From Planctomycetaceae bacterium (GTDB lineage: Bacteria; Planctomycetota; Phycisphaerae; Phycisphaerales; SM1A02), in NCBI GenBank assembly GCA_021297815.1, contig JAJTGK010000001.1, forward strand, positions 1 through 51,974: a stretch of DNA of 51,974 nucleotides, written 5' to 3'. Shown here one piece after another: positions 12,588 to 15,807 of the stretch. The notes beneath the pieces are model-generated. The model was not told the DNA's origin, did no database searches, and worked only from the letters and a program-made list of their open reading frames with translations. The translations under genes and the position numbers were made by a program. Positions within the stretch are counted from its first letter, which is position 1. The number at the start of each line of letters is the position of its first letter.

Positions 12588-13400
12588 TCAGCCCACGACC
12601 TCTGGCAGATCGAAGAGACCCTGCGTCAGGTTCACGGGCCCCTCGGCCGTGACGAGCACATCGGCCTCGTAGTGCACGCTCATCGACCCGTCCGCCGTGT
12701 AGACAGGCCACTCGCGCCCGTTCGACCGCGTCTCGGAGCTCGACACCGCGATCATGGGCTCGACGGCGACGAGGAGCCCCGGCTTGATCGCCTTCCACGC
12801 ATCGGGCCATTCGCCCGGGTACGAAGGAACCACATTCGACACGAACGGCGGCCCGTGCAGCTCCTTGCCATACCCGTGGCCTCCGAGCCCGCGCACGAGG
12901 CAGAAGCGGCACTCGCCCTCGACATAGCCCTGCACGGCCTTCGCGAAATCGATGAGCGGGCGGCCCGGCCGCAGCGCATCCACGCCCCGCCGCAGCGACT
13001 CGCGGCCGCACTTCATGAGCGCCTCGCCGATCGGGTCGCGCTCCTTGATCGCGTAGGTCCACGCGGCGTCGCCGATCCAGCCGTGGTGGCGCACGCCGAT
13101 GTCGATCGAGATGAGGTCGCCGCGGCGTAGCGGCGACGCGCGCATGTCGTGCGTGCCGTGGACGACGCACGAGTTCACCGACAGGCACGCGTGCGATGGA
13201 AACGGCGGATGCCCGCGGATGCGGTAGCCGACGAAACAGCTCGGCGCGTCGAGGTCGGCGAGCTGCTGGCCCACGAAGGCGTCGACCTCGGGCAGCGTCT
13301 GCCCCTCGCGCAGGAAGCCGACGAGGCGGCGGTGCGTCTCGACGACGCACTCCGCGGCGCGGGTCGCGCCCTCGATGTCGGCTGGCTTCGTGACGAGCAT
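12588..13400 (-). CDS. map: Methionine aminopeptidase type I
   Basis: Removes the initiator methionine from nascent proteins; dinuclear metal enzyme of the cytoplasm. All five metal ligands are in family context: Asp in ISIDIGV, Asp in GWIGDAAWT, His in GGHGYGKELH, Glu in AVEPMIA and Glu in HYEADVLV. It is 270 residues, normal for a bacterial type I enzyme without extra domains. TACATT stands 6 nt before the ATG and no Shine-Dalgarno is seen, so the mRNA may be leaderless. The genes beside it are not ribosomal or secY, unlike the classical map context. Confidence 0.95.
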   Translation of the reverse strand: MLVTKPADIEGATRAAECVVETHRRLVGFLREGQTLPEVDAFVGQQLADLDAPSCFVGYRIRGHPPFPSHACLSVNSCVVHGTHDMRASPLRRGDLISIDIGVRHHGWIGDAAWTYAIKERDPIGEALMKCGRESLRRGVDALRPGRPLIDFAKAVQGYVEGECRFCLVRGLGGHGYGKELHGPPFVSNVVPSYPGEWPDAWKAIKPGLLVAVEPMIAVSSSETRSNGREWPVYTADGSMSVHYEADVLVTAEGPVNLTQGLFDLPEVVG

Positions 13401-13446: not shown

Positions 13447-13480
13447 CGCCGCGCAGCCCGAGTCGACGGGCTGCGCGGCG
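13447..13480 (-). terminator. Terminator hairpin after the Asn/Gly-rich gene
   Basis: A 14-bp perfect stem (13447-13460 with 13467-13480) and a 6-nt loop lie 40 bp downstream of the stop at 13521. On the minus strand it is followed by gtctttc, a weak U tract. It separates this gene from map. Confidence 0.7.
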
Positions 13481-13520: not shown

Positions 13521-14354
13521 TCAGGCGACCGAGCGGACCTTGATGTTGCCGTTGACCCCGCAATCGGCGGTGGTGGCGGCCGTCGTGTTGCCAGTGCAGC
13601 AATACTCGGCGGTCGCGGGCGTGACCGCGGTGGGGCCGTTCGCGGTCGCGCCGACGCCGAGGCCGTTCGCAGGCTGGAAGCCGTAGTTCGGGTTGAACCA
13701 TCCCAGGAAGGTGGGAGCGGAGCTGCCCGTGGCTGCGGGAACGAAGACGGGCGTGAAGTTCGCACCGACGAGGTTCGGGTTGAAGCCGAAGCCAGTCGGG
13801 CCGTACTGGAAGGCGCCGTTGCCGGTCGCGCCGACGGTGGTCGGGTTCACGCCGTTCCAGCCGCCGAAGCTCGCGTTGCCCGCAAAGTAGGGCGCGTTCG
13901 CGCCCGTCGCGTAGCCGGTGCGGTAGCCGTAGCCGGTCGCAGGCACGAAGCCGTTCGGCGTGAGCCAGCCCTGGATCGTGTTGTTCGGGACATAGCCGTT
14001 CACCGTGCCGCCGAAGCCGCCCGCCGTGTTGGCGGTCGGGCCGTACGGGCCTGCGAAGGTCGGCGTCGTGCCGCCGTTGAAGAGCGAGTTCCAGTTCGCG
14101 TTGAACGCGTTGGTGCCGTTCCACGCGCCGAAGCCGTAGGTCGGGTTGATCCACGCGTTCGTGGGAGCGCCCCACGCGCCGACGAAGCCGGTCACGCCGC
14201 AGCAGTCGGGAATGCCCGCGCCGAAGTTCGGGGCAAGGGTGGTCGCGCCGTTGGCGAAGACGGGCGTCCAACCGTTGCCGCCGTTGAAGGCGGTGTTGTT
14301 CGTGCCGAAGTTGCTCGTGCCGTTGTTCGTCGTGTTCGCGTTGGTCGTGTACAT
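13521..14354 (-). CDS. Asn/Gly/Thr/aromatic-rich low-complexity protein, unknown function
   Basis: Not recognised. The 277-residue product is dominated by Asn, Gly, Thr, Ala, Pro and aromatic residues (many NG, GFG, GYG, FN, WN pairs), with fewer than ten charged residues. It has five cysteines: a CC pair near the N-terminus (DCCGV), a CC pair near the C-terminus (EYCCTG) and a last single one. There is no signal peptide and no hydrophobic helix. The start MYTTNANTTN is supported by GGAG 9 nt upstream. Codon use matches the neighbours, and a strong hairpin follows the gene, so it is probably expressed. Composition suggests a self-assembling, disordered or structural protein (coat, filament or condensate), purely by inference. 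Confidence 0.75.
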   Translation of the reverse strand: MYTTNANTTNNGTSNFGTNNTAFNGGNGWTPVFANGATTLAPNFGAGIPDCCGVTGFVGAWGAPTNAWINPTYGFGAWNGTNAFNANWNSLFNGGTTPTFAGPYGPTANTAGGFGGTVNGYVPNNTIQGWLTPNGFVPATGYGYRTGYATGANAPYFAGNASFGGWNGVNPTTVGATGNGAFQYGPTGFGFNPNLVGANFTPVFVPAATGSSAPTFLGWFNPNYGFQPANGLGVGATANGPTAVTPATAEYCCTGNTTAATTADCGVNGNIKVRSVA

Positions 14355-14550
14355 GCTGCGTTGCTCCAGGCCGTCATGGCCATGAGAAGTCTGCGGCGAC
14401 GCAAGGACCACCCGCTGCGTCGCGCTGATCGAGGTTGAATCACCGTCGGGAAGGACGGCCAGCCGTGGCCGTACGGCGCGACAATGCGCGGGAGCGCGTG
14501 GGCGTTTCAGCCCATTTGCCGCGTTTTTCGCATGCCCGCCACGAACGGCG

Positions 14551-15807
14551 CTACAGGCCTTCGACAGGCCACAGCGTGGAGCCGTCGAACACCGCCGACG
14601 GCGCGGCCGCGCCCCACTCGTAGGCGAGGGCGCGCTCGTCGCGCGTCGGCAGCTCGACGAGGTGCGCGCGCTTGCCGACCTCGAGCGAACCCGTCTCGCG
14701 CTCGAGGCCGAGCACGCACGCGGCGTTGTAGGTCGCCGCCACGATCGCTTCCTCGTGGTTCAGGCCGCAGAACCGCGCGGCGAGCGCGATGACGAGCGGC
14801 ATCGAGACGAGGGGGCTCGAGCCAGGATTGCAGTTCGTGGCGATGGCGACCGAGGCACCCGCGTCGACGAGCGCGCGGCCGTTCGCGTAGCGGCCGTCGA
14901 GGGTGAGGCCGCAGCCTGGGAGCAGCACGGCCGTCGTCGGCGACTTCGCCACGCGCACGAGCGCGTCGCGCGAGGTCGCCTCGAGGTGGTCGACGCTGCG
15001 CGCGCCGAGTTCGAGCGCGGTGTCGAGGAATCCGAGCTCGTTGAACTGGTCGACATGCACGCGCAGCGGGCAGCCGAGCGCCTTCGCGCGCTCGAACAGC
15101 CTGCGCGTCCACGCGGGGCTCCACGCGCCCTTCTCGCAGTATGCGTCGCAGGGAATCGCGCCGAAGCGCCGCACGGCTTCGGGCAGGACCTCGTCGACGA
15201 TGTGCGCGCAGAAGCGGTCCTCGTCGCCGTCGATCGCATGTGCGCCGAGGAATGTGGGCGTCACGAAGCCCGTGCCGCCCTCGGTGCGGCGGCGCGCGGC
15301 CGCGTGGATCGTGTCGAGCATCGCGAGCTCCGTGTCGCGGTCGAGCCCGTAGCCCGACTTCACCTCGACGGCGAGCGTTCCCGCGCGGCGCATCGCGTCG
15401 AGGCGCGCGTCGAGCTCGTCGCGAAGGCCTGCGCCTGCGGACGCGCCGCGCATCGCCTCGCGCGTCGCGCGCACGGTCGACATGATTCCGCCGCCCGCGG
15501 CGAGGATCTCGAGGTACGGCACGCCCGCGAGGCGCTTCGCGGTCTCGCCGTAGCGTTCGCCCGCGTGGAGCGCATGCGTGTGGCAGTCGACGAACGCGGG
15601 CATGACCACGCGGCCGCGCATGTCTCGGCGCGTGCCCGCGAGCGGCGGCGCGTCGCCTGCGCCGATCGCGGCGATGCGCCCGCGCTCGCTCACGATGTAG
15701 CCGCGCTCGATCACGCCGAGCCCGCGCATCGCGTTTCCGCGGCGCGGCCCGCGGCCGTCCGAGGCAAGCGTGAGGATCCTGGCATCGTGGTGGATCAGGC
15801 GGTCCAT
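14551..15807 (-). CDS. hutI: Imidazolonepropionase
   Basis: Third step of histidine degradation: imidazolone-5-propionate to N-formimino-L-glutamate. Amidohydrolase-superfamily signatures are present: DCHTHALHAGER (metal HxH and substrate residues), GGGIMSTVRATR, KSGYGLDRDTELAML, FLGAHA and RVHVDQFNELG. The 418 residues match the family length. The usual metal-binding Asp in the ATDxNPGSS motif is Asn here (ATNCNPGSS). No other hut gene is nearby. GACAAT stands 9 nt before the ATG without a Shine-Dalgarno. The Asn substitution leaves some doubt about metal binding. Confidence 0.9.
   Translation of the reverse strand: MDRLIHHDARILTLASDGRGPRRGNAMRGLGVIERGYIVSERGRIAAIGAGDAPPLAGTRRDMRGRVVMPAFVDCHTHALHAGERYGETAKRLAGVPYLEILAAGGGIMSTVRATREAMRGASAGAGLRDELDARLDAMRRAGTLAVEVKSGYGLDRDTELAMLDTIHAAARRRTEGGTGFVTPTFLGAHAIDGDEDRFCAHIVDEVLPEAVRRFGAIPCDAYCEKGAWSPAWTRRLFERAKALGCPLRVHVDQFNELGFLDTALELGARSVDHLEATSRDALVRVAKSPTTAVLLPGCGLTLDGRYANGRALVDAGASVAIATNCNPGSSPLVSMPLVIALAARFCGLNHEEAIVAATYNAACVLGLERETGSLEVGKRAHLVELPTRDERALAYEWGAAAPSAVFDGSTLWPVEGL

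Follow-up and report, generated by a model that had tools for sequence, protein, structure and literature searches.

A low-complexity protein family between hutI and an aminopeptidase gene in Phycisphaerales, with an upstream element resembling flagellar promoters

Composition is the usual route by which low-complexity proteins come to light; since homology search offers no way to connect them, they go without an assigned function. Among those described, prion-like (Q/N-rich) domains are recognized by a content of at least 30 Gln or Asn in 80 residues and, like FG-nucleoporins, combine uncharged Asn/Gly/Thr/Ser spacers with many Phe, Trp and Tyr residues, repeats and predicted disorder. Here we examine a gene of similar composition in a 51,974-nucleotide stretch (the window) from a planktonic planctomycete (GCA_021297815.1, contig JAJTGK010000001.1), and the family to which it belongs. 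The likeness to FG-nucleoporin and prion-like domains extends to the uncharged spacers, aromatics, repeats and predicted disorder, but there is no sequence relation, the low complexity of the family spans the whole protein rather than a domain, the Q/N content of the window protein lies below the prion criterion, and there is no sign of a pore or of an RNA-binding partner.

Two further systems bear on the expression and possible fate of the protein. For the class 3 genes of the FliA/sigma28 regulon, such as flagellin, the E. coli consensus is TAAAGTTT-n11-GCCGATAA (PMC2859248); a 'flagellar' consensus is also given as TAAA at -35 and GCCGATAA at -10, and FliA-family factors serve non-flagellar genes too, in other phyla (PMC8325347). 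The flagellar channel (20-30 A) passes unfolded proteins, and some non-flagellar proteins exit through it, as with Campylobacter FlaC (PMC8306008). The family resembles these exports in having no signal peptide, in its predicted lack of fold and in its probable co-regulation with flagellin, but differs in having no sequence relation to them and in that its export is one we infer.

The window gene and its product

The gene and its surroundings comprise the following features, all on the minus strand:

14551..15807, minus: hutI, imidazolonepropionase (TIGR01224 above cut-off; synteny), the upstream neighbour in carriers at this locus
14355..14550, minus: upstream intergenic region, holding AAGTCG-N13-[CT]CGAT in relatives and a degenerate version only (best 8 of 11) in the window copy
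13521..14354, minus: low-complexity coding sequence for 277 aa, running from the ATG at 14354 to a TGA whose last base is 13521, single copy in the genome
14199..14204, minus: first cysteine pair, C51-C52, inside PDCCG, apparently what is left of the CxxC-x7-CC motif seen in sister species
13596..13601, minus: second cysteine pair, C252-C253, followed by C265
13521..13541, minus: C-terminal tail KVRSVA plus stop, of the pattern KVR[ST]VA plus stop
13447..13480, minus: terminator-like hairpin (stem 14 bp, loop 6, tail TCTTTC), setting the gene apart from the downstream aminopeptidase gene
12588..13400, minus: M24 metallopeptidase, methionine-aminopeptidase-like (PF00557; TIGR00500 just below cut-off), the downstream neighbour in carriers at this locus

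The 277-residue frame is intact from 14354 to 13521, as in the original prediction, which had left the strand unstated; a plus-strand reading of 13521-14354 was rejected, that frame being charged and Arg-rich. The ATG start is backed by relatives that begin M-Y at the same place and is preceded at 9 nt by GGAG, matching the Shine-Dalgarno sequence that had been proposed. Codon use is host-like (GC3 0.93, like the neighbours; AAC at 39 of 39 Asn codons), and the 14-bp terminator stem claimed for the gene is present after the stop, with 13 GC pairs and a T-rich tail. Neither a strong sigma70 promoter for the gene nor an Rfam element upstream of it was found.

The earlier description of the product as nearly uncharged and rich in Asn, Gly, Thr and aromatic residues, with many Asn-Gly pairs, holds: six residues are Lys, Arg, Asp or Glu (2.2%, versus 22-28% in four neighbouring genes), Asn makes up 14.1%, Gly 18.4%, Thr 14.8% and Phe/Trp/Tyr 14.4%, Ala is also abundant, and the dipeptide NG occurs 13 times, 1.8-fold over expectation. 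The cysteine pairs said to lie only near the ends do exist (51/52 and 252/253), but they sit 25-50 residues inside the ends and are accompanied by an unpaired fifth cysteine at 265. As had been noted, the N-terminus carries no signal peptide or hydrophobic segment (maximum 15-residue mean 1.2); no signal-like hydrophobic segment was found near the N-terminus of the relatives either, so that the signal peptide expected of a Sec-secreted fibre or adhesin is seen in neither.

Searches of Pfam, NCBIfam, PHROGs, PADLOC and PDB returned no match to the window protein, in keeping with the claim that it belongs to no known family, and clear homology to an enzyme or a secreted fibre family was found in none of the libraries searched. 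Among the more specific candidates, the conserved N- and C-terminal D0/D1 domains of flagellin (PF00669) gave no Pfam match, and a phage structural or tail-fibre protein was supported by no PHROG or phage-genome match. Used directly as a homology query, the window protein recovered its own gene alone among 40 relatives and nothing in genome contigs or phages; a match in G001 (E 0.3) was discarded, the locus there holding an elongation-factor-G-like frame, and a collagen match of the family member in G118 was read as a composition effect of its G-rich repeats. Full-text literature searches, partly aimed at the family, yielded no description of it. Single-sequence AlphaFold2 prediction, run without an alignment, gave a mean pLDDT of 36; residues 198-230 (13665-13763) are the sole stretch to reach some confidence, at pLDDT about 75 with three predicted strands, and overlap the region of highest hydrophobicity. 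The protein does not look enzyme-like, and low-complexity assembly is the most natural reading, as originally suggested. No described family fits it, while the kind itself, a low-complexity assembly protein, is known.

A family defined by position

In nearly every genome of the Phycisphaerales family concerned, hutI and the M24 aminopeptidase gene are adjacent, with a gap usually below 150 bp. A minority of genomes have a gap of 0.7-1.6 kb that holds a single co-directional gene for a like protein. These carriers fall in seven genera of the one family (the window's own genus, g3, g7, g38, g40, g45 and g50), always with a single copy, and profile searches with two clade-specific alignments found a second copy in none of 400 genomes of the order. 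Within the own genus, 8 of 16 genomes are carriers (G000, G001, G002, G003, which is frameshifted, G004, G006, G010 and G011) and 7 of 16 are non-carriers with a clean hutI-aminopeptidase gap of 44-111 bp, G005 being left unassigned. A tree of the aminopeptidase unites all 21 scored carriers in a single 61-row clade (SH-aLRT 97), and carrier and non-carrier labels change on it 8 times, versus 18.6 in shuffles; most simply, this pattern would reflect an old gene lost repeatedly.

Family members range from 122 to 418 aa. Their bodies consist mostly of clade-specific, often tandem repeats (e.g. FNGFNGFNG, NNGWNNTPNTN), rich in Asn, Gly, Thr and aromatics, with 12-24% aromatic and 1-6% charged residues. 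Because this body changes fast, sequence searches fail across genera, and members are linked instead by gene order, the terminator hairpin, the C-terminal tail and the promoter element described below. Every complete member ends in Ala preceded by Ala, Val or Ser. In the own genus, each of the eight carriers has a single KVR[ST]VA plus stop, always at the family gene, and no non-carrier has any; a general C-terminal sorting tag is thereby ruled out, as no other own-genus gene bears the motif and the one extra match reads KVRCVA (G009). Of 14 members, 13 have a hairpin stem of 13-16 pairs 3' of the gene, whereas shuffled sequence averages about 8. The N-terminal start is also kept within clades, as MY[NH]..P.GWSPF..CxxCP..S[ST]DCCG in the own genus and as MQN....CCGD...C.GPCPAD in g45 and g50. 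The copy in the window, a divergent member of the family, is an outlier that lacks clear repeats and the CxxC half of the own-genus motif. Conservation, on which the original prediction had been staked, takes the form of a positional family with a conserved tail.

Pairwise dN/dS between close relatives is 0.12-0.42, which shows purifying selection on the protein and backs the coding reading, although selection is far weaker than on the aminopeptidase neighbour, which shows no amino-acid change between G002 and G011. Two proposed properties found no support. By the Q/N count the window protein does not qualify as prion-like (16 Q/N in its best 80 residues), and of 15 members scored, three reach 30 (31-36 per 80 residues in G004, G059 and G017 only). 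Cross-linking of the ends through cysteines is not supported as a layout principle, the relatives having from none (G059) through two (G079, G017 and G111) to 43 (G057); with such variation, it can only be an add-on.

Several observations accompany these loci. Profile matches corresponded to the gene at the hutI-aminopeptidase locus wherever position was checked, except in G309, from another family of the order, where a 300-aa like protein (contig C35, L207 6508-7410) built on YNGQFSTGxNTPFFGG repeats and ending REAA lies in an unrelated place, near MscS-channel and beta-propeller genes, without the promoter element. Assemblies break inside the gene's repeats in G006, G011, G064, G089, G097, G113 and G128, so that absence or truncation of the gene in draft genomes needs careful reading. 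The G003 member (L106 2914-4001) changes frame after a GFQNN repeat run, either by sequencing error or as a broken gene. In genus g25, the gap (L072 272-751 in G105; L074 276-699 in G044) holds AAGTCG...CCGA and a short charged frame that ends AEAA or RRAA and in both cases has MNAWxxxRSWH, perhaps a different filler of the slot, perhaps not a gene. Also, the Phycisphaerales loci L096, L101, L102, L120, L134, L135, L136, L139 and L144 stand under Candidatus Kuenenia, Limnohabitans or Singulisphaera, and these organism names of metagenome bins look wrong.

An upstream element shared with the second flagellin

Of 19 family genes, 17 are preceded, at -87 to -159, by the element AAGTCG-N13-[CT]CGAT (fuller consensus CC.AAGTCG..CC.......GGCCGAT) with a score of 10 or 11 out of 11. 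These genes cover all seven genera, and such a score is attained in 1.4% of random stretches of 251 bp and in 0.4% of upstream regions after shuffling; as the element was defined on this same gene set, its match at flagellin is the sole independent test. The same element lies between the tandem flagellin genes, with a full 11 of 11 in 9 genomes and a score of 10 or more in 15, out of 27. In nine own-genus genomes its distance to the second flagellin downstream is 217-220 bp and its spacer is unconserved, while g45 and g50 show weaker versions before this gene, mostly 9 or less. It was not found at the first flagellin, and an early refutation of the sigma28 idea on that ground was overturned, the second flagellin having it. 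The window gene's own upstream region reaches 8 of 11 at best, a chance level often attained by random sequence; the second flagellin of the same genome keeps TGAAGGACC...CCGATC at the right place in the alignment (also given as TGAAG...CCGATC). The same element, in the form TGAAGTCG-N12-[TG][CT]CGATG with variable spacer, was seen near 7030-7250 in L094, L095, L096, L101, L104 and L106, just 5' of a pyridine-nucleotide-disulfide oxidoreductase-like gene (IGSGPAGEKAA..).

Written as AAG-N16-CCGAT, the element matches TAAAGTTT-n11-GCCGATAA with a spacer one base longer than that of E. coli; it resembles the sigma28/FliA consensus and is presumably read by sigma28. The layout is thus close to that of class 3 genes, and is shared with the second flagellin in the same genomes, but the product is no known flagellar protein and the gene lies outside the flagellin cluster. 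Flagellin (PF00669) was detected in 23 of 27 carriers versus 31 of 52 non-carriers (Fisher p 0.02; p 0.09 with the own genus left out; kinship removed in neither). The carriers with no flagellin match are three g40 genomes (96-100% complete), in which the family gene and element are both present, and a further genome of 68% completeness; flagellation is thus the rule among carriers, though not without exception. Together, the shared element and this association suggest that the family belongs to the sigma28 regulon, and we consider it probable that its genes share a promoter class with the second flagellin.

Proposed role and competing explanations

As a working model, the family gene would be expressed from a flagellar (sigma28/FliA-type) promoter late in flagellar assembly, together with flagellin. 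Its product would be a disordered chain of aromatic stickers set in uncharged Asn/Gly/Thr/Ser spacer, which may allow copies to associate; self-assembly is thus a predicted property. A chain with neither signal peptide nor predicted fold would be suited to unfolded passage through the flagellar export channel; outside, it might assemble as a coat or adhesive on the filament or the cell, and in sister species with terminal cysteines cross-linking could follow. Selection on the protein is indicated by its dN/dS and invariant tail, and the export step is suggested by the absent hydrophobic N-terminus, the low pLDDT and a channel that takes unfolded proteins. Against the flagellar reading stand the degenerate element of the window gene, the g40 genomes without flagellin, the first flagellin's lack of the element, its weaker versions in g45 and g50, the spacer longer by one base and the fall of the flagellin association to p 0.09 once the own genus is left out. 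The chain as a whole, a flagellar-timed, disordered, self-associating and possibly exported protein, is put forward tentatively, at somewhat less than even chances, and passage through the flagellar channel is, taken by itself, rather unlikely.

The main rival keeps the protein inside the cell, as a sticker-and-spacer scaffold that phase-separates into a cytosolic condensate, the flagellar-type promoter setting its timing only. Its aromatic-rich, nearly uncharged repeats, predicted disorder and missing secretion signal all accord with this, and yet an even spacing of the aromatics beyond chance is not seen in the window protein (p 0.34) or in most relatives, the lower values being 0.003 in G309 and 0.03 in G057 and G079, the window protein is far from the prion criteria, and a nucleic-acid- or partner-binding domain is lacking. 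The scaffold's -[AV]A end could also act as a ClpX-type degron, an idea favoured by the terminal residues of all complete members and by the organism's tmRNA tag, ANTQYALAA; the tail is not LAA, however, differs from the ALAA end of that tag and occurs on no other own-genus protein. Overall, we regard a condensate scaffold as possible, if doubtful.

Should the cysteine clusters at both ends be the working parts, the protein could instead be a metal-binding or disulfide-linked structural coat, as the CxxC-x7-CC motif of sister species, CC-x5-C-x3-C in g45 and g50 and the 43 cysteines of G057 might indicate. The window copy has lost the CxxC half, however, other members have two cysteines or none, and the sole metal-motif match, to NF040898 (CC_mini_metal, an LDCC motif putative metal-binding protein), shares a D-C-C-G run but covers 11 residues of a 31-residue model at E 0.17 and 11.8 bits versus a cut-off of 30, which makes such a coat very improbable. 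Somewhat less remote, though still improbable, is a nearly neutral repeat gene that grows and shrinks by slippage, is being lost and retains little function, in this species if not elsewhere: the clean gaps of non-carriers, the eight label changes, the G003 frameshift and the degenerate window element fit it, but dN/dS, the retention of tail, hairpin and promoter element over several genera, and the intact window frame with host codon use argue for a maintained protein.

Made from the sequence alone, the original prediction was bound to miss the positional family, its conserved tail and the element it shares with flagellin. Here gene order, hairpin, tail and promoter join members whose bodies cannot be aligned, and the promoter tie to flagellin gives them a testable place in the life of the cell. 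The family also offers a natural set of nearly uncharged Asn/Gly/aromatic polymers of varied make-up for work on disordered-protein assembly, from a lineage represented here by environmental genomes. With reserve, since we hold it to be a fairly long shot, the family defined by its locus, FliA-type promoter and tail may be a flagellar-timed, flagellum-exported disordered polymer whose freely evolving repeat body would give each species its own adhesive or filament coat in planktonic Phycisphaerales.
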